Shown here piece by piece: positions 40,911 to 59,340 of a DNA stretch of 64,000 bases. The translations under genes were made by a program, and so were the position numbers. Position 1 is the first letter of the stretch, and each line of letters begins with the position of its first letter. Source of the DNA: Fibrobacter sp. (GTDB taxonomy: Bacteria; Fibrobacterota; Fibrobacteria; Fibrobacterales; Fibrobacteraceae); NCBI GenBank assembly GCA_017649565.1, contig JAGCGO010000080.1:1-64000 (forward strand), written 5' to 3'. Under the pieces are notes generated by a model. It did no database searches, was not told where the DNA came from, and saw only the letters and a program-made list of their open reading frames with translations.

Positions 40911-41040
40911 ATGGCCGTAGCCTCAACTGGTAAGGCTCTTCTCCTGCGAGGACGGGTTCGAGTCCCGGATGTTGCCGTCAGGTGTCAACGGTCGCACGCG
41001 TCGGAAGAAGGTAGTTGTGGGTTCGACTCCCACCGGCCAT
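40911..41040 (+). ncRNA. tRNA-like RNA A with a second T-arm and D-arm
   Basis: A perfect 7-bp acceptor ATGGCCG (40911-40917)/CGGCCAT (41034-41040), U8-A9, D-arm GCCT...AGGC (40920-40936), a 5-bp stem CTTCT/AGAAG (40938-40942/41006-41010), a 6-nt variable region and T-arm GTGGG-TTCGACT-CCCAC (41017-41033). The 63 nt inside the anticodon-stem position hold an additional T-arm CGGG-TTCGAGT-CCCG (40953-40967) and a D-like arm GTGT...GCAC (40982-40997). No encoded CCA. Element B at 59210 shares the same plan. Not an ordinary tRNA; the anticodon cannot be stated. Confidence 0.65.
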
Positions 41041-41064
41041 ATAACTGAACAAAGGATTTCTCAA

Positions 41065-41424
41065 ATGCCAAAAGTAAGACTCAACAACGTCACGCGCGAA
41101 GATTTTTCTATGATGGAGAAATACCACATTCCGTTAAAGATAATGGGATGCGAGGCGGAATCTTTTGATGACGTAAAAGGTTCGTTAGCCATTCAATATG
41201 TAAATGTGCTTTGCGGAACACGCCGAATCTTCTTTGACGTCAACGTAGAAACTCTTCAAAAGAAATTTTCATTTGAATACAACCATCCAGACTTGGGTTC
41301 CGACAGCATATTTGCTTGGCTTGACGCTGAAACGCAAGAAAAAGACGGGAAGCAATTTGACAAAATTGTAGAACGAATCATGCACCAATTTATTCGAAAA
41401 ATGCTGGAGAACGACAAGAAATGA
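41065..41424 (+). CDS. Hypothetical protein
   Basis: 119 residues from MPKVRLNNVTREDFSMM, with AAAGGA 8 nt upstream; frames starting inside the RNA element are rejected. Mixed alpha/beta, no motif recognised. First gene after tRNA-like element A and head of a chain of genes linked by ATGA overlaps. Confidence 0.65.
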   Translation: MPKVRLNNVTREDFSMMEKYHIPLKIMGCEAESFDDVKGSLAIQYVNVLCGTRRIFFDVNVETLQKKFSFEYNHPDLGSDSIFAWLDAETQEKDGKQFDKIVERIMHQFIRKMLENDKK

Positions 41425-41588
41425 ACTTTGCCAACCCGAAGAAGACCCTGCTTCTCGCAATGGCGAAACAGGCAAAATACATGTCGCTATACTATAGGCT
41501 CGAATTCATGTCAACGGAAGGCGAACTATTCAGGCGCAAGTGGAGACAGTTTGAGCTGTTCCGCAAGAAAGCGAAGGAGCTGGAATGA
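41421..41588 (+). CDS. Small basic helical protein
   Basis: 55 residues (MNFANPKKTLLLAMAKQAKY, then a Lys/Arg/Glu-rich helix). ATGA overlaps at both ends strongly support translation. Function unknown. Confidence 0.55.
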   Translation: MNFANPKKTLLLAMAKQAKYMSLYYRLEFMSTEGELFRRKWRQFELFRKKAKELE

Positions 41589-41758
41589 TAGAACAATTTG
41601 TCATTGAAACCTGGGAAATTCTTCTAGTGGTTATGATCAGCTATACACTCGGAGCCGTAACGTCCGTAATAATTATTCAATCAATAGAAAAAATCATCAA
41701 AAAGAATATGGAAAAAGTTCATATCGAAAACCAGAAGATGCTCCGAGGAATAAAATGA
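41585..41758 (+). CDS. Small single-pass membrane protein
   Basis: 57 residues. Residues 11-32 (EILLVVMISYTLGAVTSVII) form one transmembrane helix, followed by a basic cytoplasmic-type tail. Overlaps both neighbours by four bases. Unknown function. Confidence 0.55.
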   Translation: MIEQFVIETWEILLVVMISYTLGAVTSVIIIQSIEKIIKKNMEKVHIENQKMLRGIK

Positions 41759-42150
41759 CAGAGAAACCTAAAGCCGAGAACTGCTTCGACGTATACGAGG
41801 AATACACGAAGACCGGCGAAGAAATCCTCGTCTACCGCGCCGAGGCAATCGACAAGTACATCGACGCCCTGCGCTCCGAGATTGTCGAGAAGGTAGTGGA
41901 CGACTTCACGCGGTGGCGCAAGTGCGACCCGGTGACTGGAGCCCCGTCGGAAGAATACTTCCGCTCGCACCCGAAGAATGCTCTCGTCAAGGTGAAGTTC
42001 AACTACCTCGGCGAGGACATCGAGGTTATCAAGATCGCGAGGTGGGGTTTAAACGCGAAGTGCTGGAAGTTCCAGTGCAGCGAGGACCCGATGAACGACC
42101 CCGAGTACAAGGGCGACTACAGGGTCGCGGGATGGAGGCCCATACATTGA
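41755..42150 (+). CDS. Hypothetical protein
   Basis: 131 residues: a helical N-terminus (NCFDVYEEYTKTGEEILVYR) with AIDKYIDALRSEIVEKVVDD and a beta-like C-terminal half rich in Tyr/Trp (ARWGLNAKCWKFQCSEDP). Linked by overlap to both neighbours. Family not recognised. Confidence 0.6.
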   Translation: MTEKPKAENCFDVYEEYTKTGEEILVYRAEAIDKYIDALRSEIVEKVVDDFTRWRKCDPVTGAPSEEYFRSHPKNALVKVKFNYLGEDIEVIKIARWGLNAKCWKFQCSEDPMNDPEYKGDYRVAGWRPIH

Positions 42151-42434
42151 GCGAAGGTTTCCATTGCGACAGATGCGGGCTATGCTGCCGCAAGGTCGGA
42201 AAGTTCCCGTTCATGAAGGAATTCGACCGCGGAGACGGAGCCTGCAAGCACCTGAAGGACGACAACACGTGCGCGATATACGAAAACAGGCCGACGGTGT
42301 GCAACGTGGACCGGCTCTACGAAGAACGGTTCAAGGACGACATGACAAGGGACGAATGGTACAGGCTCCAGTACGAAGGATGCCGGGAACTGAAGGAGGA
42401 AAACGGGAATGGGAATGGACGTGAACGATTTTGA
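42147..42434 (+). CDS. YkgJ-family cysteine-cluster protein
   Basis: 95 residues from TTG 42147, with GGAGG 8 nt upstream; in-frame ATG 42132 is an alternative. HCDRCGLCCRKVGKFPFMKE, GACKHLKDDNTCAIYENRPT and VCNV match the YkgJ/zinc-or-iron-chelating cluster (C-x2-C-x2-CC...C...C-x3-Y-x-x-RP-x-x-C). Such proteins are thought to bind Fe-S or zinc; the phage role is unknown. Confidence 0.75.
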   Translation: MSEGFHCDRCGLCCRKVGKFPFMKEFDRGDGACKHLKDDNTCAIYENRPTVCNVDRLYEERFKDDMTRDEWYRLQYEGCRELKEENGNGNGRERF

Positions 42435-42591
42435 TTCGGTGCCCAAAGTAATCAGCGAAGGGATGAACGTCGGCGGACGCGGATACACGCTCACGGAAGC
42501 GCAGAAGATGAGGCGCAGACGCGGCAAGAGCATATACAACAGGGACACGAAAGTGGAAGAATACAAGTACAGCAAGGGAGAATGGGTATAG
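42409..42591 (+). CDS. Small hypothetical protein
   Basis: 60 residues (MGMDVNDFDSVPKVISEGMN, then a basic segment QKMRRRRGKSIYN). Overlaps the YkgJ gene by 26 nt, ends 1 nt before the glycosyltransferase. The C-terminal YSKGEWV resembles the end of the protein at 56958 (PKGEWV). No function assigned. Confidence 0.55.
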   Translation: MGMDVNDFDSVPKVISEGMNVGGRGYTLTEAQKMRRRRGKSIYNRDTKVEEYKYSKGEWV

Positions 42592-42592
42592 C

Positions 42593-43630
42593 ATGGCTAA
42601 CAACGCAATAAAGAAGGATCTCATCGTGGTGCACGGCACCGACCGTACGCAGTGCGGATTCCAGCGGTTCGTGCTTCCGACCCTCATGCACGCGACTTCT
42701 CTGACCGAGAACGTGCACGTGGAGCTCCGCACGTCGCCCGTAACCGACGTTGGCGAACTGAAGCGCCTCATATCCGTGGTTATCGTGCGACCGGCAGACA
42801 TCGCCTGGAAGGGCTACGTGGCCTACTACACGCAGAAGCGACAGTTCTTCGGCTTCAAGGTGGTGGTTGACTTTGATGATCCGCTGTGGTGCGTACACGA
42901 CAACTGCCGCGATCTCATGGACGAGGTTTCAAGAGGTTTCGACTGCGCGGTGCTTTCGACTAGGGCGCTGAAGGACAAGTTCCACGACCGCTACCCCGCA
43001 ACGAGGGCGATAGTGATGCCGAACGGCGTGGCCGACTTCATGTACGGCAACACGGACAAGGGCGAGCCCGCAATGCCGCGCAAGGTGCCTGTGGTGCTGT
43101 ACGGAGGCGCGGGAGGACACGACGAGGACTTCGCCGGTCCGTGGTCTTCGTGGCTGCGGCACAAGGTAGAGGACGGAGAGATAGAATTCCACTGTTTCGC
43201 ATCGCCAATCAAGCCGCTGGAGCACCTGGCGAACCGAATCACGGTGCACAACGCCGTCACGCCGCCGGAATGGGGCAAGGCGTTAACGTCGATACGCCCG
43301 GACTTCTACATCGCGCCGCTCGCCGACACGACCGTGAACCGCTGCAAGAGCGACCTGAAGTACAAGGAGGCCTGCGAGCTCGGCGCCGTGTTCATGGGCT
43401 GCGGCGAGAACTGGTCGCCGTACAGGTCGGCACCGAAGGGACAGCTCGTAGCGAACTCGGCCACCGAGGACGAACTTGACGCGAAGTTCCGCTCATTGTG
43501 CGAGCCGGAGAACTTCGCGAACGCGGTCAAGGCGCAGCGTGACATGCTCACCGAGAAGCACCTGCGCATGACTGACCACGTCTTCATAGGACGCTGGCTC
43601 ATCGCATACGGCAACTGCAAGGAAGCGTAG
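42593..43630 (+). CDS. Phage glycosyltransferase (GT4-like)
   Basis: 345 residues. VVHGTDRTQCGFQRFVLPTL opens the N-terminal Rossmann half. VVDFDDPLWCVHD, RAIVMPNGV and VVLYGGAGGHDEDF are typical of GT-B enzymes, and KYKEACELGAVFMGCGENW matches the K-x-x-E-x-x-x-x-G nucleotide-sugar site. The acceptor is unknown: it could be modified phage DNA or host surface glycan. It lies in the early operon, away from tail genes, so DNA or host modification is more likely than virion decoration. Confidence 0.75.
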   Translation: MANNAIKKDLIVVHGTDRTQCGFQRFVLPTLMHATSLTENVHVELRTSPVTDVGELKRLISVVIVRPADIAWKGYVAYYTQKRQFFGFKVVVDFDDPLWCVHDNCRDLMDEVSRGFDCAVLSTRALKDKFHDRYPATRAIVMPNGVADFMYGNTDKGEPAMPRKVPVVLYGGAGGHDEDFAGPWSSWLRHKVEDGEIEFHCFASPIKPLEHLANRITVHNAVTPPEWGKALTSIRPDFYIAPLADTTVNRCKSDLKYKEACELGAVFMGCGENWSPYRSAPKGQLVANSATEDELDAKFRSLCEPENFANAVKAQRDMLTEKHLRMTDHVFIGRWLIAYGNCKEA

Positions 43631-43684
43631 CCGGATGCCGTCGCACGCGAACCACGATAACATAGCAGATAGGAAATACACACA

Positions 43685-43980
43685 ATGTTCACCGAATACC
43701 ATCTCGAAAAGATCATCCAGGCGATAAACGACGCCGAGGAACGGCAGACGAAGGCGATTGTCGCCGCCATCGAAAAACTGAATCCTGAGACCGTCAAGGT
43801 CACGCAGGAACGTCACGGCGTCGAACTGTCCATCAACCCGGACATGTTCACCCCGAAGAGGAAGAGGCTCTAGCCAAGGCAATCGACGAATCGCGCGTGG
43901 TCCCCGTAAAGAAACCGTCCACGGCACCGAAGAAACCGACCGCCACGAAGAAACCGGCTCCGGTAAGGGGGCGCAACTGA
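43685..43980 (+). pseudogene. Small Lys/Pro-tailed protein split by a one-base frameshift
   Basis: The first frame gives 62 residues (MFTEYHLEKIIQAINDAEER to FTPKRKRL, stop at 43871-43873). In the -1 frame from about 43853 the sequence reads P-EEEALAKAIDESRVV and a Lys/Pro/Ala-rich tail (KKPSTAPKKPTATKKPAPV) to the TGA at 43978, which overlaps the next ATG. The natural protein is therefore probably approximately 98 residues, with one base missing near ACCCCG. It may be intact if the indel is an assembly error. Confidence 0.6.
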
Positions 43981-44156
43981 TGGTTAGAGGCGACAGCGAA
44001 TGGAAAAGCCAGCAACGCCGCGAGGAACTGCCGAAGGCTCGCTGCTACAGATGCGGCAGGGAAAGGCCTGTGAACGAGATGGTGGAAGTGGGCTACGAAG
44101 TCTACGCGTGTCCCGGAGGATGCAGGAAGGCCGCAAACACGGAGGAAACGAAATGA
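43980..44156 (+). CDS. Small zinc-finger protein
   Basis: 58 residues starting MVRGDSEWKSQQRREELPKA. CYRCGRERP and YACPGGCRK give two Cys pairs for one zinc. The ATG overlaps the preceding TGA and the stop overlaps the next ATG, so it sits in a translationally coupled chain. Unknown role. Confidence 0.6.
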   Translation: MVRGDSEWKSQQRREELPKARCYRCGRERPVNEMVEVGYEVYACPGGCRKAANTEETK

Positions 44157-44722
44157 CCGAACAGGAAAAGGACCTTTTCATAGAGCAGCTCCAGAACGAG
44201 CTGCGCAACTCAAAAGAGACCGTCAACGCGCAGAAGGTGGTGATACGCCAGCTCTGCGCCGAGAACGCCAAACTCGAAAACGAAATCAGGAACATCAAGC
44301 AAAGGAAAACGGAAAATGAAGACACTCGTGGAACTCACGATGAAGGACGTGAAGGAAATTGCAAACAAAGTAACAACGGGGGGGGGTGTAGCGAAGTAGC
44401 GCGTACGCCGCTGGATGTGGCTCTCGCGAAGAAGTGCGAGAAGCTGTACGCAGCGCTTGTCACGGCGAACAACGAGCGCAACCGTTTCTTCGGACTCCTC
44501 TACGGCCACTACATACGCCTGGGCGACCTCAAGAAGACATTCGACGAGAAAAGGGCGAACGAGCTGCTGAACGAGAGCAAGAGACTCTTCAGCCGTTCCG
44601 TCAAGATGAACTCGGAGGCGGCAGGCCTTGAAGCCGTAACAATGAACCCGCCCTACACCACGCCCGAGGAAGTCTTGAAGGTAGTGACAGACAAGGAAAA
44701 GGAAGAACCAAAGGAAGGATAA
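44153..44722 (+). CDS. Coiled-coil protein crossing a G9 tract (possibly two genes)
   Basis: 189 residues as the sequence stands. Residues 1-58 (MTEQEKDLFIEQLQNELRNS) are a coiled coil. Residues 59-82 look like out-of-frame sequence up to the G9 run; from residue 83 natural coding resumes (LDVALAKKCEKLYAALVTAN, FFGLLYGHYIRLGDLKK). An internal ORF at 44316 gives a more natural reading before the tract. One G more or fewer would join different halves. Function unknown. Confidence 0.55.
   Translation: MTEQEKDLFIEQLQNELRNSKETVNAQKVVIRQLCAENAKLENEIRNIKQRKTENEDTRGTHDEGREGNCKQSNNGGGCSEVARTPLDVALAKKCEKLYAALVTANNERNRFFGLLYGHYIRLGDLKKTFDEKRANELLNESKRLFSRSVKMNSEAAGLEAVTMNPPYTTPEEVLKVVTDKEKEEPKEG
44316..44399 (+). 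CDS. Alternative short ORF ending just after the G9 tract
   Basis: MKTLVELTMKDVKEIANKVT, then three Gly and VAK, stop at 44397-44399. GGAAAACGGAAA lies before the ATG. The sequence looks more like real protein than the overlapping frame. If the tract had ten G, this ORF would run into the LDVALAKK frame and make a 135-residue protein. Confidence 0.4.
   Translation: MKTLVELTMKDVKEIANKVTTGGGVAK
44378..44386. repeat. Homopolymer G9 inside a coding region
   Basis: Nine consecutive G at the junction of two reading frames. Such tracts are slippery in replication and also error-prone in long-read assemblies. Confidence 0.95.
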
Positions 44723-44726
44723 CCCC

Positions 44727-44936
44727 ATGGCCGTGAACCCTGCAAGACAGCACCGCGCAGAGACGATGTACGCGCGCATATACCCCTACCGCACGAAGGT
44801 GACGGGCGAATGCCCGCAGCGCATCCAGCTCATACTCGCGCTCAACGGGTGGTGCGCACCCTGGCACGCGCTCCGCGAGATAGCGAAGGACATACCGCGT
44901 GACCGCCTGAAGGGAATGGAGCTGGAGCTTGGATGA
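44727..44936 (+). CDS. Small hypothetical basic protein
   Basis: 69 residues (MAVNPARQHRAETMYARIYP, then RIQLILALNGWCAPWHALRE). GGAAGGAT lies 6 nt upstream of the ATG. The stop overlaps the next start. Not recognised. Confidence 0.55.
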   Translation: MAVNPARQHRAETMYARIYPYRTKVTGECPQRIQLILALNGWCAPWHALREIAKDIPRDRLKGMELELG

Positions 44937-45310
44937 GCGGTGTCTACTCGAAGGCGAGGGAACGAATAGCGGCCATGGACGCGCTGGCGTCCGCATTCGC
45001 AGGCGCCAAGGCGGTAGCCGACGCGGAACGCAAGCGCCGTAACCAGCGCGAACGCAGTCCCGAACGGAAGGAATACAAGAAGGCCTACGACGGCGTAGGC
45101 GGACCCGGACACGAGGGAATGCTGGAGCGTTCCAGTCGATACAAGGAACGGCACCCGGAAAGGTGCAAGGCGAAACAGAAAAGGTACTACGAGGAACACC
45201 GCGAACAGGAGGACGAGAGGTGCAGGCTATGGCGAAGGATGAAAAAGATATTGGCGCTCGCTACAATCCTGACTACGTGCGGGGATTCCGCGCGGCCCTG
45301 CGGTACCTGA
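44933..45310 (+). CDS. Basic, Arg/Lys/Glu-rich hypothetical protein
   Basis: 125 residues; the first approximately 102 are very basic with repeats such as SSRYKERHPERCKAKQKRYY, resembling the protein at 56537 and suggesting nucleic-acid binding. The last approximately 24 residues overlap the next gene by 82 nt in another frame and look unnatural, so the true end may be shorter (possible indel near 45230). Confidence 0.5.
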   Translation: MSGVYSKARERIAAMDALASAFAGAKAVADAERKRRNQRERSPERKEYKKAYDGVGGPGHEGMLERSSRYKERHPERCKAKQKRYYEEHREQEDERCRLWRRMKKILALATILTTCGDSARPCGT

Positions 45311-45486
45311 TAACGACGGCAGACGCACCCGGCGACGGACTGAAGAAGGCGAAGGTGCTCGGCAAGCGCACGCTGGAGTGGCTGAAGGTGGTCGAGGAAT
45401 TCGCCTTCGACATAGCGGACGGCAACGACATAGAACTTTGGATCACGCCGGACGGCAAGCTGTTCGGTAAAAAGGAAAGACGATGA
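45229..45486 (+). CDS. Hypothetical protein
   Basis: 85 residues from MAKDEKDIGARYNPDYVRGF, with AGAGG upstream. A helical middle (KKAKVLGKRTLEWLKVVEEF) and a strand-rich end. The stop overlaps the next start (ATGA). No family recognised. Confidence 0.6.
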   Translation: MAKDEKDIGARYNPDYVRGFRAALRYLITTADAPGDGLKKAKVLGKRTLEWLKVVEEFAFDIADGNDIELWITPDGKLFGKKERR

Positions 45487-45719
45487 AGAAGACGCGCAGC
45501 ATAACGACCACCGTCACGGTGCAGCCATCTGACGTTGAGTTCGTGCCGAGGCTGGGAGAGGTGCCGAACGAGACGGCGGCGGATAGGGTGCGGCGAATGG
45601 CCAACGAGCGGAAGAAAAGATACCTTCTGAACCCGGTAAACCGACGGAAGCACATCAGGTGCATCATCGAGTGCGTAAGGCGCCAGCGCGAAAGAAAGAA
45701 ACTACAGAAGACCGCTTGA
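45483..45719 (+). CDS. Small basic protein, last gene of the early operon
   Basis: 78 residues: MKKTRSITTTVTVQPSDVEF followed by a highly basic helix (RRMANERKKRYLLNP, RRQRERKKLQK). Overlaps the upstream stop by four bases and is followed at once by a terminator. Nucleic-acid binding is plausible from charge alone. Confidence 0.55.
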   Translation: MKKTRSITTTVTVQPSDVEFVPRLGEVPNETAADRVRRMANERKKRYLLNPVNRRKHIRCIIECVRRQRERKKLQKTA

Positions 45720-45732
45720 ACGGTCTTTTTTC
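45709..45732 (+). terminator. Terminator of the first early operon
   Basis: AGACCG-cttgaa-CGGTCT followed by TTTTTTC. The stem overlaps the end of the last gene. Confidence 0.9.
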
Positions 45733-46371
45733 TTTTTATCGTCAATTCAGCCAATTTTGTAAAGTAAAAAAAAAGAAACCGCATTTTGACGAAATTCAAA
45801 AGGCGACGAAAAGTAAACGAAACGAAACACGGCTTGCGCCGGATTCCTGTTCCTAAACACACTTGATACACTCCTGCGTTTTTGACACTTTGCAAAATAT
45901 CGTTTTTAAGCAAAGTGTATCAAGTGTACCAAGCATCCAACCCACCCCACACCCCCAATATACCTTTTCCTCGACGACAAAGCAAACGCACAATTTGCGA
46001 ACGGTTCGCAAATCCGGCAGAAAACGGCACCGATTTTCGGATTCAAGGTCACCGACTAGGAGTATTCCAACATGGAATAGTCGAATTTCCGCACGGAACC
46101 GACCTAGAAAGCCGTTTTTGGCACTCGCACGTACTTCCTACCGCCCAAAAAGAAAAACGGCCTAGAATGCCGTTTCCGTTCGACTGCGGATTTATGCGTG
46201 CTTCGCATTTTGATGCACTGCATAAAGTCCGATGCAAGGCCCAAGCGTCAAAATCCGTATTTTACCGATTTTAAACCCTGTTTTTGCAAAAATCCTGCAA
46301 AATCCGCAAATTAAACCGGAAAATTCAACATTTTGTATCGTTTTCGGGTTTTACTTGCCGTTTCACGCGGT
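45733..46371. other. Non-coding gap between convergent operons
   Basis: About 640 bp with no convincing ORF. It holds the nested palindrome at 45859-45927 and G-poor, C-runs near 45940-45960. Weak hairpins with GGC/GCC (46090-46170, TTTTTGG and AAAAACGG) could end minus-strand transcription from the 46372 gene. The T- and A-rich end (46260-46340) shows no promoter I trust. Confidence 0.5.
45859..45927. repeat. Nested inverted repeats
   Basis: ACACTTGATACAC (45859-45871) is the exact complement of GTGTATCAAGTGT (45915-45927). Inside, CACTTTGC (45886-45893) pairs with GCAAAGTG (45910-45917). The two pairings share GTG, so they are mutually exclusive, like a switching structure or two binding sites. 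Confidence 0.75.
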
Positions 46372-46716
46372 CTATTCCGTCTTATCCTCGATCTCCCCAG
46401 CGATGAGGTTCGGGTTGGTGCGCAGCTCCTCCTCGCAGACCTCGATGAGCGAATCCATGGCGCCGATGGTCGTTTTCAGGACGGATTCCGTAGGCACCCT
46501 ACGCTCGACGTCCTTGTCTATCGACTTGCGGCATATCTTCATGTGGTTCACGAAGTTGGTCATCTGGAGCCTGCGCCCCTTGCAAATGAGCAGTTCGTTC
46601 TCCTTGAAGTGCTCCTTCTCCAGTTTGAGGAACATCTTCGCCATCTCGGACATCATCTCCTTCTGCACGGTAAGCAGCATCTTCGTGATTTCGGCTAGGT
46701 CGTTCTTGTCGAGCAT
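46372..46716 (-). CDS. Hypothetical helical protein downstream of repressor
   Basis: 114 residues from MLDKNDLAEITKMLLTVQKE with AGGAG 8 nt upstream; the longer frame to 47037 is a shadow of the repressor gene. Helical, Met- and Lys/Glu-rich. Co-directional with and 11 nt downstream of the XRE gene, so part of the same lysogeny transcript. Function unknown. Confidence 0.6.
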   Translation of the reverse strand: MLDKNDLAEITKMLLTVQKEMMSEMAKMFLKLEKEHFKENELLICKGRRLQMTNFVNHMKICRKSIDKDVERRVPTESVLKTTIGAMDSLIEVCEEELRTNPNLIAGEIEDKTE

Positions 46717-46727
46717 CGTATTTTCTC

Positions 46728-47033
46728 CTACTTGTTCATGTGGATGTCTTTCTTGAGGTTCATCAGCGAGTTCTCGGCAGCCTCCCACAGCGCGCCCTTC
46801 TGCCTGAGCGCGTCGGCGCTCGACGGGTAAGGATACCCGAACAGCTCCTCGACGGTCATCCCCATCCGGAGCAGCTTGTCCTCGGTCTCGTGCTTCGGGA
46901 ACTTCTTCCCCTTCGCCCAGTTGGATACGGTCTGCTCGGAAACGCCGAGCCTTTCCGCGAGTTCGTCCTGCTTGCGGATACCGAGCCTTTCGCCCTCGCG
47001 GGCGAGAAATTCCTTGATGGCTAGACCTTTCAT
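46728..47033 (-). CDS. XRE-family transcriptional repressor
   Basis: 101 residues from MKGLAIKEFLAREGERLGIR. QDELAERLGVSEQTVSNWAK is a textbook Cro/CI helix-turn-helix; a short C-terminal helix (ADALRQKGALWEAAENSLMN) could dimerise. ATG 47033 is preferred over a TTG at 47042, with GGAG just upstream. Its promoter overlaps two GTAAAATTT repeats, so autoregulation is likely. One of two immunity-type regulators in the window. Confidence 0.8.
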   Translation of the reverse strand: MKGLAIKEFLAREGERLGIRKQDELAERLGVSEQTVSNWAKGKKFPKHETEDKLLRMGMTVEELFGYPYPSSADALRQKGALWEAAENSLMNLKKDIHMNK

Positions 47034-47043
47034 GCACTCCAAT

Positions 47044-47073
47044 ATAGTAAAATTTTAAAACGGAAGTTGTAAA
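47044..47073 (-). promoter_or_regulatory. Promoter and operator of the XRE repressor
   Basis: Minus-strand TTTACA (47068-47073), 18 bp, TACTAT (47044-47049). Direct repeats GTAAAATTT at 47047 and 47069 (22 bp, two helical turns) lie inside it. The predicted start is only about 5 nt before the ATG, so the mRNA would be almost leaderless. Confidence 0.55.
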
Positions 47074-52373: not shown

Positions 52374-52406
52374 CACAACTTATCAACAATAACCGGAGAC
52401 AAGACA

Positions 52407-53420
52407 ATGGAACAAGCAAAGGAAACTACTACCGCCGTCAGCGTGCTCGACGACTACTCCGTAATCGTCGTCGACCAGGAACGCCTCCAGACATTTTTCT
52501 CGGACGGCAAGAACCTCGATGAAGTCTACGGACACATCGAGAAGATGGCGAAGGGCCTCGTCGCCGACATCTCCACCAAGGAAGGCGTCTCGCAAATCAA
52601 GAGCTGCGCAAGGCAAATCGCAAGCGCCAAGACGAAAATCGACAACCTCGGAAAGCAGGTGGTCGCAGAGCTCAAGGAACTCCCCAAGATTATCGACGCC
52701 AACCGCCGCAACTTCCGCGAACGTATGGAAGCCCTGCAAGACGAAATCCGCCGCCCGGTCACCGAGATCGAGGAACGCGAAGCCGAAATCGACCGCATCA
52801 AGACCGTGCACCAGCAGCTCATCGGTGCGGACTCTGCCACCATCAAGCAAAACATCGAATCGGTGAAGGCGATCGAGCTCACCGCCGAAAAGTGGAAGGA
52901 GAGCCTCGAAAAGGCCACGAAGGCCGTGACGGAAGAAATCAACGCCCTCGAGACGATGCTCAAGGCCGCCGAAAAGCGCGAGGCCGAAGAACGCGAGCTC
53001 GAGGAACTTCGCAAGAAGCAGGAAGAAGCCGAGCGCATCATCCGCGAACAGAAAATCCGCGAGGAAGCAGAACGCAAGGCAGCCGAAGCCGAAAGGGCCG
53101 CACAGGAGGCCCGCGAACGCGAAGAAGCCGCCAGGAACTCCAAGGAGGCGATTGAACGCGCCGCCATCGGGGCTCAACAGGCCACAGTACCGATGTCGAA
53201 GCCCCTGCCGCAGCCGAAGCCCTCCAAGTGGACCGACGCCCAGAAGGCTGTGAACAAGCGCATTGTGGCCGACATCGCCGCCATCATCGAACCGGAACTC
53301 AAGACACGTATCGCCGGACACTCCGACCCCGGCTACAGACTCGCGGCGGAAGAATCCGCGAAGGCAGTCGTGAAGGCTGTTCTCACGGGAAAAATCAACA
53401 ACCTCAAGGTGGAGTACTAA
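52407..53420 (+). CDS. Coiled-coil protein of the phage recombination module
   Basis: 337 residues. Residues 30-140 (VADISTKEGVSQIKSCARQI, SAKTKIDNLGKQVVAELKEL) match a widespread phage protein found next to YqaJ exonucleases. Residues 170-250 are a very long Glu/Arg/Ala coiled coil. The last approximately 70 residues may bind DNA or partners (WTDAQKAVNKRIVADIAAII). No enzymat­ic motif. Directly upstream of the exonuclease, so probably an accessory of recombination. Confidence 0.7.
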   Translation: MEQAKETTTAVSVLDDYSVIVVDQERLQTFFSDGKNLDEVYGHIEKMAKGLVADISTKEGVSQIKSCARQIASAKTKIDNLGKQVVAELKELPKIIDANRRNFRERMEALQDEIRRPVTEIEEREAEIDRIKTVHQQLIGADSATIKQNIESVKAIELTAEKWKESLEKATKAVTEEINALETMLKAAEKREAEERELEELRKKQEEAERIIREQKIREEAERKAAEAERAAQEAREREEAARNSKEAIERAAIGAQQATVPMSKPLPQPKPSKWTDAQKAVNKRIVADIAAIIEPELKTRIAGHSDPGYRLAAEESAKAVVKAVLTGKINNLKVEY

Positions 53421-53422
53421 AA

Positions 53423-54397
53423 ATGGAATTTACCGAAATCAACCGCAACGAGGCCGACAAGGCCGCATGGCTCGAAAAGCGCAAGCACTACGTTACAGGC
53501 ACGGATGCCGGAAAGCTCATTGGCGTGTCGCCGTTTGGCGGAAAGTTCGCCGTATGGCTCGACAAGATGGGCCGCGCCGCGCCCGTTGCCGAAACGCCCG
53601 CGATGAAGGCCGGCAAGAAGTTCGAATCTGCAATTTTGCAGATGTACGCCGAGGAAATGAACTGCAAGCTGGAACACGTTGACGGCTACAACCTCATTAC
53701 TTGCGACAAGTACCCGCGCCTCGGCGCGTCCCTCGACGGCTGGAACCACGACCTGCAAATTCCGGTCGATGCAAAGAATATCAAGTGGAAAAACGAGAAG
53801 TGGGGCGACGCCTGGACCTCCGATTTCCCGGAATACTACAAGGCGCAACTCCAAGTGCAAATGATGGTGACGGGCGCCACATTCGCACATCTTGCCGTCA
53901 TGTTCAGCGGTCAGGACTTCTTCATCTATTCCATGGAATACGACGAAGATATGGCGCAGAAGATTCTCGACGCGTCCGATGAATTTTGGCACTATGTCGA
54001 AAACGACCAGATGCCCGAAGCCGACGGCTCCGACGAGGCCTCGGACTACATCAAGGACAAGTACGCGGTCGGTACGCCCGACATCGAAAAGGATGCCGAA
54101 GAGAACCTCCAGAAGTACGTGGCAGACTACAAGGCCGCGACCGCCGCCGAGAAGGACGCCAAGGCGAAGAAGGACGAGGCTGGCAACCGCATCAAGGTAT
54201 TCATGGGCGACGCCACGGTGGTGCCAGGGTTCTGCACCTGGAAGAACGCTAAGGATTCGCAGAAGACCGACTGGGAGGCCGTCGCAAAGGTCGCCATGGA
54301 AAACATGAGCGTGCTCGACCGCGACAAGCTCGTCGCGAAGTTCACCGAGACGAAGCCGGGCAATAGAACACTCCGCATCACCGCGAAAGGATTTTAA
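53423..54397 (+). CDS. YqaJ-type recombination exonuclease
   Basis: 324 residues from MEFTEINRNEADKAAWLEKR. HYVTGTDAGKLIGVSPFGG, MKAGKKFESAILQMYAEE, YPRLGASLDGWNHD, IPVDAKNIKW and YYKAQLQVQMMVTG follow the YqaJ/lambda-exonuclease order, with the GASLD Asp and the D-x-K replacing the usual E-x-K metal site. The C-terminal third is a coiled coil. It degrades 5' strands to feed the annealing protein encoded next. Confidence 0.85.
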   Translation: MEFTEINRNEADKAAWLEKRKHYVTGTDAGKLIGVSPFGGKFAVWLDKMGRAAPVAETPAMKAGKKFESAILQMYAEEMNCKLEHVDGYNLITCDKYPRLGASLDGWNHDLQIPVDAKNIKWKNEKWGDAWTSDFPEYYKAQLQVQMMVTGATFAHLAVMFSGQDFFIYSMEYDEDMAQKILDASDEFWHYVENDQMPEADGSDEASDYIKDKYAVGTPDIEKDAEENLQKYVADYKAATAAEKDAKAKKDEAGNRIKVFMGDATVVPGFCTWKNAKDSQKTDWEAVAKVAMENMSVLDRDKLVAKFTETKPGNRTLRITAKGF

Positions 54398-54423
54398 ACA
54401 ATCAACCCCAAAGAGGTAAAACT

Positions 54424-55428
54424 ATGGAACAAGCAATGCCCCCCGCAATCGCAACCCCCGAACAGCAGATGATGCCCGCCGTGGCACCTTCCGCCTCCGA
54501 AAGCGCCGCCTTCGCGATGGCCGCGCAGCAGAAGGCTATCGTCGAGGCCCGCTACAAGATGGCCCTCGCCCGCCCCCGCGACCTCGACATGGTCCGCCAG
54601 GCGATGCTCAAGGACGCCCGCCGCCCCAGCTTCGCGAACGTCGCCATCTACCACAAGCCCGTCGGCAAGGGCATCGAAGGCCCCAGCATCCGATTCGTCG
54701 AGGCCGCCATCCGCAACATGACGAACATCCTCACCGAGACGGCCACCGTATCCGAGGACGACGAACGCCGCGTGATCCGCGTCGCCGTCAGCGACCTGGA
54801 AACGAACACCTACTTCAGCCAGGACGTGACCGTCACCAAGACCGTGGAACGTGCCAAGCTCCCGCAGGGAGAAAAGCCAATCCGCGTCCGCACCAACAGC
54901 TACGGAAAGCCCGTCTACATCCTCCACGGCACCGACGACGACATCCTGAACAAGCAGAACGCGCTCATCTCCAAGGCGGTCCGCACACTCGGACTCCGAC
55001 TCATCCCGGGCGACCTCGTTGACGAAGCGCTGTGGTACGTAAGGCAGACGATGCAGAAGCAGGACGCCGCCGACCCGGATGCCGCCAAGAACCGCCTGAT
55101 CGACGCCTTCGCGCAGCTCGGTGTCGCGGTGGAATCGCTCAAGGACTACGTCGGCCACGAACTCTCCGCGCTCGACCCGAACGAACTCCAGACCCTCCGC
55201 GCCATCTACTCCGCAATCAAGGACGGCGAGACGAGCTGGAAGGCCGTGATGGACGACAAGGCAGAAAAGGATGCCGAAGCCAAGCAGTCCGCGAAGAACG
55301 GCAAGATTGCCGCCGCGAAGGCCGCACCGAAGCAGGAAACTAAAAAGGAACCCGAACAGCCCGCGTCCGGTGACGCGCCGACACCTGAATCGTCGACGAC
55401 CGAAGACAACGACATGTTCGGAGACTAG
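54424..55428 (+). CDS. Putative single-strand annealing protein (RecT/Sak analogue)
   Basis: 334 residues. An N-terminal Pro/Ala-rich start, then FAMAAQQKAIVEARYKMALA, RPRDLDMVRQAMLKDARRPS, FANVAIYHKPVGKGIEGPSI and RFVEAAIRNMTNILTE. The NKQNALISKAVRTLGLRLIP segment is the conserved core of a phage family that always travels with YqaJ exonucleases. The C-terminus is disordered and acidic, ending DNDMFGD, like the SSB-interaction tail of recombination proteins. Role by context: anneals ssDNA. Confidence 0.7.
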   Translation: MEQAMPPAIATPEQQMMPAVAPSASESAAFAMAAQQKAIVEARYKMALARPRDLDMVRQAMLKDARRPSFANVAIYHKPVGKGIEGPSIRFVEAAIRNMTNILTETATVSEDDERRVIRVAVSDLETNTYFSQDVTVTKTVERAKLPQGEKPIRVRTNSYGKPVYILHGTDDDILNKQNALISKAVRTLGLRLIPGDLVDEALWYVRQTMQKQDAADPDAAKNRLIDAFAQLGVAVESLKDYVGHELSALDPNELQTLRAIYSAIKDGETSWKAVMDDKAEKDAEAKQSAKNGKIAAAKAAPKQETKKEPEQPASGDAPTPESSTTEDNDMFGD

Positions 55429-55583
55429 CCGGAAACTCCGGCACCCCTCCTGGCGGCAGCGTGCGTAGTGCACAATTTTTGTTCGGCGGCCTTCAGGAGG
55501 GTAGAACATCAAGCTGTAGAACGTGCTTCTCCCACTCTTGCTAACTCACGGCATCAAGCGAATACATGGAATAGAGTGGAATA
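55429..55583. other. Non-coding stretch before tRNA-Met
   Basis: 155 bp without a plausible gene. CCTCCTGGCG (near 55446) and the AGGAGGG near 55496 could pair into a long hairpin (CCCTCCTG/CAGGAGGG), perhaps the terminator of the recombination operon, although no T-run follows. Confidence 0.4.
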
Positions 55584-55655
55584 CGGCATATAGCACAATG
55601 GTTAGTGCAGCGGACTCATAACTCGCCGATGAAGGTTCGAATCCTTATGTGCCGA
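55584..55655 (+). tRNA. tRNA-Met (anticodon CAT)
   Basis: Acceptor CGGCATA/TGTGCCG (one G-U), D-arm GCAC...GTGC, anticodon stem GCGGA/CTCGC (weak top pair) with loop CTCATAA giving CAT, T-arm around AAGG-TTCGAAT-CCTT, discriminator A. No encoded CCA. A methionine-type phage tRNA (initiator, elongator or tRNA-Ile2 cannot be separated). Confidence 0.85.
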
Positions 55656-55676
55656 TAGCCCGATGGGTGTAAGTTT

Positions 55677-55704
55677 TTGACAAGACACAATACTTCCCTA
55701 TAAT
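55677..55704 (+). promoter_or_regulatory. Sigma-70 promoter
   Basis: TTGACA (55677-55682), 16 bp, TATAAT (55699-55704), 22 nt after the tRNA. Confidence 0.8.
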
Positions 55705-56043
55705 AGCACCCGGAGGGCACAATTTTGCACGATGGCGGCATGAACAAACAACGAACAAACAAACTTTTAAACTTTCTTCTAAGGTCTGGTCGTTGCAATA
55801 AATTACACAAAAACGCCGCCGGAGTGCAAAAATCTTGAAAAGTGTGTCGCCCATAACTGGACCTTGGGGACACATGGCGCGGCGAGGCGGCTTGTAGGAA
55901 CTCCATTTTTACCTTACCGCCCACGCCACTAGGCGGCATAAAAGTAACTGAATTAGCCATGCCGACGAAGACGGGTAAACCGCCGCGCCTCCACCCGCAG
56001 GCCATAACTGCGGGAACGGATTTGAAAACCAGGAAGGATGAAG
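55705..56043 (+). ncRNA. Long leader or structured RNA after a strong promoter
   Basis: About 330 transcribed bases before the next good ORF. It has G-C hairpins (CCGCAG-gccataa-CTGCGG near 55998-56015; GCGGCGAGGCGGC and CCGCC...GGCGG around 55880-55935). A weak 32-residue ORF at 55740-55838 (MNKQRTNKLLNFLLRSG) has no SD. Could be an untranslated leader, a small RNA or a decayed gene. Confidence 0.4.
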
Positions 56044-56304
56044 ATGAGAAAGGAAGAATACCTCAAGATACTGGCCAAGTACCCGCCCTGCAAGGAGGAA
56101 GTCCTCGGGGAGAAAGTCTGGACGCCAAGCATGGCTGCAAAGGCTATCGGGATGAAGTCCCGCAACACCGTGCTCAACTGGGAGCGAAATACGGTCGCCG
56201 GTGAGATGGACATGCCGATGTTCGGCGGTCGAATCAAGGGTTCACTGGTCCACATCCCGATCCGCAGATTCCTTGACTGGTATTGCTACGTGGGGCAGAA
56301 CTGA
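56044..56304 (+). CDS. Excisionase/MerR-like DNA-binding protein
   Basis: 86 residues from ATG 56044 with AGGAAGG at 56031-56037; ATG 56038 is too close to it. WTPSMAAKAIGMKSRNTVLN is a winged-HTH start, and MFGGRIKGSLVHIPIRRFLD is the wing-helix typical of excisionases and AlpA-like regulators. May direct excision with the integrase or regulate early genes. Confidence 0.65.
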   Translation: MRKEEYLKILAKYPPCKEEVLGEKVWTPSMAAKAIGMKSRNTVLNWERNTVAGEMDMPMFGGRIKGSLVHIPIRRFLDWYCYVGQN

Positions 56305-56339
56305 CACTTTAATGCAAGTAAAACGACTCCTTAATTCGC

Positions 56340-56367
56340 TTGACAATAAACACGTTAGTTGTACATT
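56340..56367 (+). promoter_or_regulatory. Sigma-70 promoter
   Basis: TTGACA (56340-56345), 16 bp, TACATT (56362-56367), 18 nt before the ATG at 56386. Confidence 0.7.
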
Positions 56368-56385
56368 ACGGATAAAATAAAAATC

Positions 56386-56544
56386 ATGAAGAATAATCCA
56401 AGATTACGCGATCCAATGAATGACAAGCTGACGAACATCTGGCTATGGGCCGTTGCGGTGGCGTTCACAATTGCCGCGTTCTGCACATTCGCTGCGTGGG
56501 TGGTGGGAATTACGATTTGCCTCATGAGGATGTTCAATGGCTGA
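56386..56544 (+). CDS. Small membrane protein
   Basis: 52 residues. Residues 17-45 (IWLWAVAVAFTIAAFCTFAA, then WVVGITICL) form one long or two short membrane helices. Overlaps the next gene by 8 nt. Unknown function; first gene after its own promoter. Confidence 0.6.
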   Translation: MKNNPRLRDPMNDKLTNIWLWAVAVAFTIAAFCTFAAWVVGITICLMRMFNG

Positions 56545-57046
56545 ACCGACCGCACAACAACTCGCACGTCAGCGCATAGCGAAGGTTGACATCACCCAGT
56601 TCGCTCCGAAGCCTCAGAAGAAAAGCGGCCCGGTGCCAAAGCAGAAAGCTCCGGATCCTCCAAAGAAGCCTCGCGTGATACTCACGCCGGAGGAGCGTAA
56701 GGCGAAGGCGAGGCAGTACAACCACGACTGGTATGTCGCCCACAAGGAGCACTGCCTGGCACAGAGCAAGAAGTGGGCGCAGGAGAACCGCGACAAGACG
56801 CGCAAGTCGTGCAGGGACTACTACGCGGCTCACAAGGACGCCCGCAACGCGGCAAGCAAGAAGTGGATAGACGAACACAAGGATATTTACAACGCGAGAA
56901 TGCGGGAGTACCGCAGGAAGCAAAGGGAAAAATGTAGAAACGAAAGCGAGGTAAATAATGGTCAACAAGGAAGTGCAGAAACTTGTAGACAGCGGCATGA
57001 GCGTGAGGACTGCATACCGCAAGGCCGAGCGCATGAATGCCGATAA
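56537..57046 (+). CDS. Basic HNH-like or DNA-binding protein, 3' end doubtful
   Basis: The first approximately 133 residues are basic with repeats (YNHDWYVAHKEHCLAQSKKW, CRDYYAAHKDARNAASKKWI, YNARMREYRRKQREK) resembling phage proteins with tandem YY-x-x-H helices. After the A5 run at about 56930 the frame looks unnatural and overlaps the next gene by 89 nt. With one more A it would end at a TAA just before the next ATG. So an indel is suspected. Confidence 0.55.
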   Translation: MAEPTAQQLARQRIAKVDITQFAPKPQKKSGPVPKQKAPDPPKKPRVILTPEERKAKARQYNHDWYVAHKEHCLAQSKKWAQENRDKTRKSCRDYYAAHKDARNAASKKWIDEHKDIYNARMREYRRKQREKCRNESEVNNGQQGSAETCRQRHEREDCIPQGRAHECR

Positions 57047-57104
57047 CAAGAAGAAGATTGAATTCAACTACGAGGCTGAAACGCCTAAAGGAGAATGGGT
57101 ATAA
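56958..57104 (+). CDS. Small hypothetical protein
   Basis: 48 residues (MVNKEVQKLVDSGMSVRTAY, then basic KAERMNADNKKK and the end PKGEWV). The C-terminal KGEWV recurs in the protein at 42409. Ends 2 nt before the next ATG. Confidence 0.55.
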   Translation: MVNKEVQKLVDSGMSVRTAYRKAERMNADNKKKIEFNYEAETPKGEWV

Positions 57105-57106
57105 TA

Positions 57107-57676
57107 ATGACACAGGAAGAACTTGACAAGATTATCGAGCAGCACCAGCACTGGATTCACGAGGATGTGGACGGATGGGAAGATATGAGAGCGGACTTGC
57201 TCGATAAGGATTTATCTGGACTCCGCCTTGACGGTGCCATCCTTGACGGTGCCATCCTTGACGGTGCCATCCTTGACGGTGCCATCCTTGTCGATGCCAG
57301 CCTTGACGGTGCCAGCCTTGACGGTGCCAGCCTTGTCGGTGCCAGCCTTGACGATGCCGAGAAAATTCGTCTCGGTCAAATTCTCACCGAGCCCATGACG
57401 GGCTACAAGAAAACCAAGGAAGGCGTGGTCATCACTGCCGAGATTCCAGCGGGTGCAATCGTCTTCTGCATCAACAGAAGAAAGTGCCGAACGAACATGG
57501 CAAAGATTACCGATATGGACGGCCACGAAATCTTGCACTCGCAATACGACAATTCCTTTGAGTACCGCATGGGACAGGAAATTAATATCAAGGACTTCAA
57601 CCTTATGTACAACGTGGAGTGTGCGAGCGGCTTCCACTTCTTCAGGACGAAGAAGGAAGCGGAGGATTACAAATGA
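57107..57676 (+). CDS. Pentapeptide-repeat protein with DUF5758-like C-terminus
   Basis: 189 residues from [20 protein letters not shown]. Residues 38-85 are about nine [10 protein letters not shown]-type pentapeptides, predicting a short right-handed quadrilateral helix. The C-terminal [33 protein letters not shown] matches the DUF5758 domain often fused to such repeats. Function of these phage proteins is unknown; DNA mimicry has been shown only for longer ones. Confidence 0.75.
57233..57352. repeat. 15-bp tandem repeat within the pentapeptide gene
   Basis: CCTTGACGGTGCCATC-type 15-mers: four near-identical copies ending in ATC, then four ending in AGC with single changes. In-frame copy-number change would lengthen the helix without a frameshift. 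Confidence 0.85.
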
Positions 57677-58071
57677 GCGAACTGAAAGCGTACACATCTG
57701 TAGACATTGAAGAAATGGACAACGCAAAATTATATCGTGATAATAGACTTCAATGCACCAGGGTTTACCTCAAGTCCGAAGCCGACAAGGTGATTGCTGA
57801 GAAGGATGCGAGGATTGCTGAATTAAAAAAAGAGCGAGACTGGTTGGCAAAAGATAGGGCGCAAGCCTACGATGACCTCGAAAAAAGAGCGCAGTTAAAT
57901 ATCAAGCAAGAAGAGTCTATTCGCCATCAGAAGTACAAGCGGTGCTTGGCGATGGCGAGGTGGTGCAGAGAGTGTTCCTGGAGCAAGTGTGTCGAGAATG
58001 TTGATTTTTATTACAAGTGGTATAACAGATGGCTTGAACTTGCAGAGAAATTCAAACCTAACAAGGAGTAA
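57673..58071 (+). CDS. Coiled-coil protein with Cys/Trp-rich C-terminus
   Basis: 132 residues from [20 protein letters not shown] (ATGA overlap upstream). A coiled coil (residues 33-80: DKVIAEKDARIAELKKERDW) is followed by CLAMARWCRECSWSKCVENV, four Cys that may bind metal, and FYYKWYNRWLELAEKF. Unknown function. Confidence 0.6.
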   Translation: MSELKAYTSVDIEEMDNAKLYRDNRLQCTRVYLKSEADKVIAEKDARIAELKKERDWLAKDRAQAYDDLEKRAQLNIKQEESIRHQKYKRCLAMARWCRECSWSKCVENVDFYYKWYNRWLELAEKFKPNKE

Positions 58072-58074
58072 TAT

Positions 58075-58344
58075 ATGATCGTGAAAAAAGTTGATTTGGA
58101 ACAGAAAGAGTGGTCTAAACAAAGAGTGACAATCGAACTCTCTTATAGTGAACTTTCCACAATTTGCAACTTGATTGCGAAAATGGAAATGAAACGTGCA
58201 GAAGATTACAACTTGAAGTATGAATTTGCCTGCCTTCACGATTTCTGCCACGATTGTGGGATTAAGACAACACTCATTCCCAAGCACATTTGGCCTAAAT
58301 TGGCTGAAGAAGCCGAGAAATTCAAGGAGGCGAACGATGAATAA
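58075..58344 (+). CDS. Hypothetical protein
   Basis: 89 residues starting MIVKKVDLEQKEWSKQRVTI. Helical, with CLHDFCHDCGIK (three Cys, two His) as a possible metal site. Overlaps the HNH gene by 8 nt. Not recognised. Confidence 0.6.
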   Translation: MIVKKVDLEQKEWSKQRVTIELSYSELSTICNLIAKMEMKRAEDYNLKYEFACLHDFCHDCGIKTTLIPKHIWPKLAEEAEKFKEANDE

Positions 58345-58705
58345 AAAGACCCGTAAAATTGTCTACGAAAAATATGGAGGTCGCTGTGCATACTGTGGGC
58401 AGCCGATAGAGATGAAGGATATGCAGGTAGACCATATCGTTCCTATCGCAAGAGGCCATTCGGACGCACTTATGAAAGCAAATAATATTGAACGTGGAAC
58501 TGAGAACATAGATAATTACAACCCTGCTTGCCGTGCCTGCAACTTTAGAAAAGGGATGCTTGACATTGAAGAATTCCGAGAAGCGCTAATGCATGGAATA
58601 GATGTTCTGGAAAGGAACTTTACATATCGCCTAATGATGAGGTACGGACTAATCGTAAAACGTGAGCCAAGAACGATAAAATTCTTTTTTGAGGCGCTTA
58701 GATGA
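58337..58705 (+). CDS. HNH endonuclease
   Basis: 122 residues. CAYCGQPIEMKDMQVDHIVP and NPACRACNFRKG give the two zinc pairs and the D-H of the HNH motif (third N in NIDNYN). GGAGG lies 6 nt upstream of the ATG. Could be a homing-type or host-directed nuclease, or assist packaging, though it is far from terminase. Confidence 0.85.
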   Translation: MNKKTRKIVYEKYGGRCAYCGQPIEMKDMQVDHIVPIARGHSDALMKANNIERGTENIDNYNPACRACNFRKGMLDIEEFREALMHGIDVLERNFTYRLMMRYGLIVKREPRTIKFFFEALR

Positions 58706-58887
58706 TAGTACACTATGACCAAGACAAGCGCAAGGACCTTGTCTTCACGATTCAGGAGGTCGACGCCGGACACGTCGAAATCATAATAGACCAGCAACGG
58801 CCCCCGTGCGGGGATTTTCAGCAGGTAGGGCACTATTCCGTGCCGGTCCCGGAAGAACCCGCAGAGATTTTCACAATCAAAAGATAA
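58702..58887 (+). CDS. Small hypothetical protein
   Basis: 61 residues (MIVHYDQDKRKDLVFTIQEV, beta-rich, ending EPAEIFTIKR). ATGA overlap with the HNH gene supports translation. Function unknown. Confidence 0.6.
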   Translation: MIVHYDQDKRKDLVFTIQEVDAGHVEIIIDQQRPPCGDFQQVGHYSVPVPEEPAEIFTIKR

Positions 58888-58914
58888 CCGCCCATAGGGC
58901 AAAGGAAACAAACC

Positions 58915-59202
58915 ATGTGTGAAGAAAACAAGAACAACGAAAAAAAAGAAATTCCGGAAAACCTGTTCGAATAGCTGAACAGCCTTCGCAAAAAGCGCGA
59001 GGATACACCGAGCGAGAAAATCCTGAAGATCGCGCTCGAACGCGACAAGGTGTATGACCGTTGCAAGTCCTTGAGCGCAGAAATCAAGGAAGTGAAGGAA
59101 AAGAACCAGGACTACAGCTTCCTCACGATCCAGTTCAACCACATGGACGATTACAAGAAAGTCCTCGGCGACCAGATCAAGAAACTCATCGACGAAACCT
59201 AA
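58915..59202 (+). pseudogene. Coiled-coil protein gene interrupted by an in-frame TAG
   Basis: Starts MCEENKNNEKKEIPENLFE, then TAG at 58972-58974, then LNSLRKKREDTPSEKILKIA and on to DQIKKLIDET with stop at 59200-59202. Codon quality and coiled-coil pattern continue smoothly across the stop, so the ancestor was about 95 residues with Glu or Gln at codon 20. TAG is used as a normal stop elsewhere in this genome, so reassignment is unlikely. It lies 7 nt before tRNA-like element B. Confidence 0.65.
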
Positions 59203-59209
59203 AACCACA

Positions 59210-59340
59210 TCGGCTGTAGCTTAATTGGTTAAAGCGCGGCTATACCCGAATATCGGTTCGACTCCGATGAAAGAAGGTGTTAAACGGTTACACGCGGGAA
59301 GAAGGTGCCGAAGGTTGCGGGTTCGACTCCCGCCAGCCGC
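59210..59340 (+). ncRNA. tRNA-like RNA B with a second T-arm and D-arm
   Basis: Acceptor TCGGCTG/CAGCCGC (six of seven pairs; 59210-59216/59334-59340), D-arm GCTT...AAGC (59219-59235), stem CGGC/GCCG (59237-59240/59307-59310), variable AAGGTT, T-arm GCGGG-TTCGACT-CCCGC (59317-59333). Between the stem halves lie a second T-arm ATCGG-TTCGACT-CCGAT (59252-59268) and a second D-arm GTGT-TAAACGGTT-ACAC (59277-59293). Same order and spacing as element A, sharing CACGCG and GGAAGAAGGT. No CCA encoded. Confidence 0.65.

Follow-up and report, generated by a model that had tools for sequence, protein, structure and literature searches.

Background

The roles of phage-encoded transfer RNAs (tRNAs) are debated, the main proposals being decoding and resistance to anticodon nucleases. 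In 2007, Ponchon and Dardel reportedly engineered 'tRNA scaffold' RNAs, in which a foreign structured RNA is carried in the anticodon stem of a tRNA. Permuted tRNA genes, in which the 3' half precedes the 5' half, are found in unicellular algae and an archaeon (PMC3978253). The order T-arm, closed acceptor, D-loop occurs in the permuted two-piece transfer-messenger RNA (tmRNA; Rfam RF04321) and in tmRNA (RF00023), and the Salmonella RNA YrlA (RF02553) contains a tRNA-like domain that is left uncut by an SOS-induced anticodon nuclease and was proposed to be a competitive inhibitor of that nuclease (PMC7790460). Here, two elements, A and B, are compared with these systems. Both lie in a 64,000-nucleotide stretch (hereafter the window) of contig JAGCGO010000080.1 from the Fibrobacter sp. 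assembly GCA_017649565.1. Matches to portal, head-closure and terminase place the window in a tailed-phage contig, which belongs to an assembly with a 3.45-Mb bacterial genome.

Judged by their sequences, A and B represent a class of phage RNA in which two tRNA bodies are joined back to back, hereafter called twin RNAs. Like canonical tRNA (RF00005), a twin follows the cloverleaf order in its outer half, from acceptor and D-arm to variable region and T-arm, with CCA encoded in some members and scores of 35–56 bits; unlike it, the twin has no anticodon hairpin, and a structured insert of 50–100 nucleotides (nt) occupies that place. The inner body of the twin shares with permuted tRNA genes the order of 3' half before 5' half, but it is nested in another tRNA, shows no bulge-helix-bulge, lacks an anticodon and occurs in bacterial viruses. 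The tmRNA order is likewise shared, whereas the mRNA-like domain, tag open reading frame and pseudoknots are absent from the twins. In contrast to the engineered scaffolds, the twin is natural and phage-encoded, and its insert is itself a tRNA body. The design was not found described in the openly licensed full-text literature on nested, permuted or anticodon-less phage tRNAs; an earlier mention of phage YrlA variants is possible.

Architecture of elements A and B

The original prediction, made from the letters of the window, described two tRNA-like RNAs with a single plan (acceptor, D-arm, stem, T-arm plus D-arm, stem, 6-nt variable region, T-arm, acceptor). Their coordinates and plan hold as described, both in the sequence and in the RF00005 alignments, and the predicted pairing was confirmed in the sequence, with 7 of 7 acceptor base pairs (bp) and a 5-bp closing stem in A, and 6 of 7 and 4 bp in B. 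The parts of the two elements are as follows.

40911–41040, + strand: element A, the entire twin RNA from outer acceptor to outer acceptor (RF00005 match; homologues L119, L478 and L480, L numbers denoting loci)
40911–40917, + strand: A outer acceptor, 5' strand ATGGCCG, pairing with CGGCCAT at 41034–41040, 7/7 (sequence, pairing count)
40920–40936, + strand: A outer D-arm, GCCTCAACTGGTAAGGC (sequence, RF00005 alignment)
40938–40942, + strand: A outer anticodon-stem strand CTTCT, pairing with AGAAG at 41006–41010, 5 bp (sequence; minimum-energy folds of A and L119)
40944–40948, + strand: A inner anticodon-stem strand CTGCG, pairing with 40999–41003 (sequence, alignment, L119 fold)
40952–40968, + strand: A inner (first) T-arm, ACGGG-TTCGAGT-CCCGG (sequence)
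40982–40997, + strand: A inner (second) D-arm-like hairpin, GTGTCAACGGTCGCAC (sequence)
41017–41033, + strand: A outer (second) T-arm, GTGGG-TTCGACT-CCCAC, preceded by the 6-nt variable region at 41011–41016 (sequence, RF00005 alignment)
59210–59340, + strand: element B, the entire twin RNA (RF00005 match; homologues L173, L514, L515, L516 and L527)
59210–59216, + strand: B outer acceptor, 5' strand TCGGCTG, pairing with CAGCCGC at 59334–59340, 6/7 (sequence, homologues)
59219–59235, + strand: B outer D-arm, canonical, GCTTAATTGGTTAAAGC (sequence)
59237–59240, + strand: B outer anticodon-stem strand CGGC, pairing with GCCG at 59307–59310, 4 bp (sequence, B-family alignment)
59245–59248, + strand: B inner anticodon-stem strand CCCG, pairing with CGGG at 59295–59298 (sequence, B-family alignment)
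59252–59268, + strand: B inner (first) T-arm, ATCGG-TTCGACT-CCGAT (sequence)
59277–59293, + strand: B inner (second) D-arm, GTGTTAAACGGTTACAC (sequence, B-family alignment)
59317–59333, + strand: B outer (second) T-arm, GCGGG-TTCGACT-CCCGC, preceded by the 6-nt variable region at 59311–59316 (sequence)

Both elements thus contain a full tRNA upper half (acceptor, D-arm, T-arm and closing anticodon stem), in which a T-arm followed by a D-arm-like hairpin replaces the anticodon loop, and the distance from T-arm to T-arm is exactly 65 nt in each. The inner anticodon stem forms 4 of 5 pairs in A and all 5 in L119 and L480. The original prediction had looked to covariance models and to ARAGORN for support. 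The former provide it: RF00005 spans the full length of A (35.6 bits, E = 3.6e-6 when 251 bases were searched) and of B (37.6 bits, E = 2.6e-4 for the whole window), with anticodon-loop inserts of 62 and 66 nt, respectively. ARAGORN does not, as it calls neither element in the window, where the sole ordinary tRNA it finds is tRNA-Met(CAT) at 55584–55655.

The RNA of A is 94.6–95.9% identical to those of L119 and L480 amid flanks that align poorly, and A is therefore conserved as a unit. In the B family, the interior is near-identical, with one inner substitution among five sequences, and a single compensatory change is seen in the acceptor, from C-G to A-U at pair 5, giving TCGGATG/CATCCGA (7/7) in L514, L516 and L527.

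Relatives and covariation

Relatives were sought in IMG/VR as pairs of T-loops spaced more closely than tandem tRNAs permit and preceded at short distance by UAGC, which gave 97 stretches. A strict scanner then required an outer acceptor, a D-arm and a closing stem, and excluded the T-arms of ordinary tRNAs; 29 distinct elements were retained across all loci, a few of them spurious. Because of this exclusion, two tandem tRNAs were rejected as an alternative pairing. Nor can the elements be broken down into a pair of ordinary tRNAs, an outcome that the original prediction had considered. The conserved piece CACGCGNNGGAAGAAGGT singled out there gave 16 chance matches in viral contigs, none near a tRNA T-loop, and the spacing of the two T-arms served as the working criterion.

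Relatives beyond A and B do exist. The twin plan is present in about 30 IMG/VR contigs, near-identical copies counted, and the B-type RNA in three further genomes of the host genus (168 genomes from the host phylum were scanned). Among the matches listed in the bacterial genome scan, the scanner accepted only L331, which was rejected as an artefact adjoining an N. Comparison with annotated phages using blastn gave no matches for A or for the alpha and beta elements, and only partial matches, mainly to ordinary tRNA features, for B, L243 and L452. The close homologues are L119, L478 and L480 for A, and include L173 and L527 for B. An alpha family (L428, L466, L424, L068, L245, L278, L423 and L289) and a beta family (L425, L422, L470, L452, L243 and L281) were distinguished, together with scattered members (L426, L447, L445, L457, L182 and L507, plus three in the 324-kb phage L171). 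Twins are 120–178 nt long, and in large phages they sit among ordinary tRNAs.

The complete design is shown by L243, L281, L425, L452, L422 and L489. From the 5' end, it runs through the outer acceptor, outer D-arm, outer anticodon stem, inner anticodon stem and inner T-arm, and then through the loop-closed inner acceptor, UA, the inner D-arm, the returning strands of both anticodon stems, the variable region, the outer T-arm and the outer acceptor. Two tRNA bodies thus lie on a common anticodon-stem axis, the inner one circularly permuted and with its own acceptor closed by a loop. The term 'permuted tandem tRNA', one of the options put forward originally, is literally right for these relatives, whose insert is a permuted tRNA body that has a closed acceptor and an anticodon stem of its own. 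Reduced forms are seen in A and B, in which both T-arms and both D-loop GG pairs are kept. In L457, two canonical D-arms accompany one shared 7-bp stem, and the unconstrained minimum-energy fold is the twin; L426 and L457 encode ACCA directly after the outer acceptor.

Since a joint MAFFT alignment of all families misaligned the interior, covariation was counted family by family. In the six-sequence alignment of the complete twins, 240 of 240 cells are paired and 22 of the 40 pairs are changed on both sides, which was matched by none of 500 shuffles. The double-changed pairs include all six of the inner acceptor and all four of the inner anticodon stem, and when the partners were slid by 1–3 columns, pairing fell to 36–48%. 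At 42% identity, the inner acceptor is less conserved than any other part, but it is paired throughout. The alpha family is 98.9% paired with 13/33 pairs double-changed, and the beta family 99.5% paired with 13/31. For the outer acceptor, a mean of 6.44 of 7 positions pair between an element's own strands, compared to 2.96 when partners are swapped between families (25 elements), and the strict scanner accepts 24 elements in viral loci, compared to a mean of 2.4 (maximum 8) after shuffling of the 3' ends among the same non-ordinary T-arm pairs. The outer pairing is therefore not due to chance. The E-values of model R1 were not used as evidence for twins: a tRNA makes up half of this model, and it matches ordinary tRNAs as well.

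Absence of an anticodon loop

In none of 35 twin sequences is a U33-type 7-nt loop closed by a 5-bp stem, none of the twins is called a tRNA by ARAGORN, and the Rfam scan of A and B returned no tmRNA match, in agreement with the original prediction that this is not the plan of a usual tRNA or tmRNA. The two anticodon stems are connected by linkers of 4+8, 4+7, 4+9 or 1+6 nt, which contain no U33 and whose sizes make two normal anticodon loops impossible. As read from the alignment, these linkers of 7–13 nt in total also show no bulge-helix-bulge (3-nt bulge, 4-bp helix, 3-nt bulge).

RNA ligases are patchy among the carriers, and none is common to all of them. RtcB genes are present in the contig of the A homologue L119 (46575–47654) and in contig C48 (10770–11888) of the host assembly, both phage-like contigs, and an Rnl2-type ligase in three other carriers, whereas the large carriers G006, G008, G012, G013 and G016 have no RtcB or PF09414 match. 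A search of the carriers for PF09511 (Rnl1) gave no matches and its control was silent, making this a weak negative. An 'intron-like insert', as also proposed at the outset, finds no support here, given that a decodable anticodon loop is missing from every relative and the carriers have no ligase in common. Decoding by the twin RNA, whether direct or after splicing, appears unlikely.

Relationship to YrlA

The inner half of the complete twins resembles YrlA in its succession of T-arm, closed acceptor hairpin, UA, D-arm and a stem replacing the anticodon arm, a likeness that goes beyond the original prediction. The Rfam YrlA model scored 40.9, 43.4 and 41.8 bits on the inner halves of L425, L489 and L452, and 34.7 bits on an L171 element, relative to a gathering cut-off of 69. 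The stem of the twin runs into a second tRNA upper half, whereas that of YrlA runs into the Ro-binding stem. Strings of the Ro-binding motif are absent from the twins save for scattered single matches in different sequences, and Ro60/TROVE (PF05731) was found in none of 16 records, which may be fragments and comprise the host assembly plus 15 from phages, with the control detected in Deinobacterium. The twins were therefore not filed as YrlA. The comparison suggests, weakly, that the inner half has the plan of the YrlA tRNA-mimic module, from which it may be derived, and the twin as a whole looks like a tRNA with a YrlA-type module in its anticodon loop.

Proposed function and alternative explanations

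The best overall explanation, to which we assign a probability of roughly 45%, is that the twin is a non-decoding double tRNA mimic that would occupy tRNA-acting proteins, possibly anti-phage tRNases. The outer body is an ordinary tRNA upper half, and in place of its anticodon loop stands a permuted inner body, which begins and ends with an anticodon strand and carries between the two, in this order, the T-arm, an acceptor hairpin or short linker, and the D-arm. The outer acceptor would be processed by RNase P and 3' maturation, freeing a stable RNA of ~125–150 nt from the phage message. This RNA would offer two tRNA elbows plus acceptor and T-arm surfaces, and would serve during infection as a decoy or sponge, mimicking tRNA in competition for tRNA-acting proteins. 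The most attractive putative targets are host tRNA nucleases of anti-phage defence; because it has no anticodon loop, the RNA would resist cleavage by anticodon nucleases. Phage tRNAs escape tRNA-cleaving defences (PMC11555353; PMC10264068), and for some defence nucleases, such as Cas12a3 (PMC12851939), the recognised parts of the tRNA are the acceptor and T-arm, not the anticodon. The nearest published precedent for the mechanism is the tRNA-like domain of Salmonella YrlA described above (PMC7790460). More tentatively, the twins may be a separate and widespread phage RNA class, not derived from YrlA and independent of Ro60; two complete tRNA bodies head to head on one anticodon-stem axis, lacking an anticodon, would then have evolved into a bivalent tRNA decoy directed at host proteins such as tRNA-cleaving immune nucleases.

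Several observations weigh against the mimic, most of them concerning A and B themselves. The inner acceptor hairpin is lost in both and a short linker stands in its place, their interiors are conserved without covariation, and their folding energies are unremarkable (z = –0.81 and +0.33), with the twin fold of B lying 2.7 kcal/mol above the predicted minimum. In the B family, the double-change count (one acceptor pair) is not significant alone, being reached in 140 of 500 shuffles. Loss of a T-arm or of the outer acceptor among homologues had been named in advance as evidence against the elements: both T-arms are kept and most homologues keep the acceptor, often with compensation, but the B homologues L173 and L515 retain just 5 of 7 acceptor pairs. 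The Rfam YrlA model has no match on A or B, and the sub-cut-off scores of the complete twins could reflect convergence, as any permuted tRNA body would score. The twin structure is thus well supported in the relatives and less so for A and B alone; with strong covariation confined to the former and unremarkable energies in the latter, the twin folding of A and B rests on the shared plan.

The main rival to the double mimic is a tRNA-scaffolded cargo, in which the outer half would give processed ends and stability, the insert would be the working part, and the second tRNA body would be one of several cargoes. Other inserts are found on the same scaffold (L426:629–758, L171:6281–6418 and L442:6976–7106); in an RNA on contig C48 of the host assembly, the anticodon arm has given way to a pair of hairpins whose loops are complementary, with outer acceptors compensated in L519; and the B and alpha families vary most in the acceptor, with a nearly fixed interior. 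The inner acceptor of the complete twins nevertheless remains fully paired at 42% identity, which argues that both halves act as structural bodies, and we regard the cargo as rather unlikely. If the twin instead marked RNase P cleavage sites between phage genes as a cis-acting punctuation of the message, the positions of A and B, 5 and 7 nt past the stop codons of related genes and with + strand genes downstream, would be accounted for. The outer half alone would suffice for this, but conservation in A and B is highest in the inner half, and the twins of large phages are located among ordinary tRNAs; such punctuation is highly improbable.

We consider it just as improbable that the twin holds two real nested tRNAs, with cutting in the internal loop and ligation releasing the outer tRNA as well as an inner one that is first circularised and then linearised, in the manner of algal permuted tRNAs. 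The inner order is that of permuted tRNA genes (PMC3978253), in some twins the two anticodon stems stay separate, with about 4 and 8 nt of linker, and the RtcB and Rnl2-type genes described above are at hand in some carriers. But the linkers do not amount to two 7-nt loops with U33, a canonical anticodon hairpin is present in no relative, five large carriers have neither an RtcB nor a PF09414 match, and the inner acceptor is lost or capped by tight tetraloops (GAAA, TTCG). The plan could also arise if two tandem tRNAs lost their anticodon loops, and phage tRNA clusters are fluid, so that the twins might be functionless fused remnants with the middle deleted. Such decay, the least probable of the alternatives, is largely refuted by the 22 of 40 compensated pairs, by covariation in three independent families and by the recurrence of this RNA in phages whose flanks are unrelated.

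A conserved phage RNA that contains the tRNA body twice and no anticodon would mean selection for the tRNA shape itself. The decoy idea becomes directly testable, including the published suggestion concerning the YrlA tRNA-like domain and the anticodon nuclease. Standard tRNA finders, moreover, overlook a whole layer of tRNA-derived RNAs in phage genomes.

Genomic context and other tRNA-like RNAs

Each element directly follows a gene.

40060–40905, + strand: gene ending 5 nt upstream of A, with a crAss001_48-related (PF21825) C-terminus
58915–59202, + strand: small gene ending 7 nt upstream of B, with an in-frame TAG at 58972–58974

The DNA of the gene before A matches that of the gene just upstream of the B-type RNA in L173 (72.6%), and the crAss001_48-related C-terminal region (PF21825) is shared between 40060–40905 of the window and L173:8826–9169. 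Given this common region, a gene-plus-RNA unit may travel together. The in-frame TAG in the small gene is replaced by a sense codon in L514 and L515, and could represent a point mutation or readthrough.

About 20 short D-armless tRNA-like elements with a conserved CAGCAA, such as GGATACATACAGCAATGTCTAACGACACGTTGGTTCGATTCCAACATTATCC, directly follow phage tRNAs (L145, L123, L177, L436, L439, L481 and others); no separate Rfam family was matched in the three loci scanned. In a phage contig, a permuted tmRNA (L447:679–976, – strand; RF04321, 64.3 bits) adjoins a twin RNA, and the phage-like contig L457, with its fully symmetric twin, also holds a tmRNA and an abiF RNA (8923–9295 and 9346–9382, – strand).

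Large structured anticodon-loop inserts of other kinds are present in L426 (perfect outer tRNA, AGGCT/AGCCT, three hairpins), at the L171 and L442 positions given above, and in L459:3120–3275. The anticodon-less tRNA-like RNA of contig C48 (19475–19589, – strand; loci L048/L517, relatives L518, L519, L528 and L529) has a perfect outer tRNA, and the loops of its two hairpins, ATGGAAG and CTTCCAT, are complementary over 7 nt. One loop-loop pair is broken in L518, and the outer acceptor AGCCTCG/CGAGGCT is replaced in L519 by the compensated TCGGTTG/CAGCCGA.

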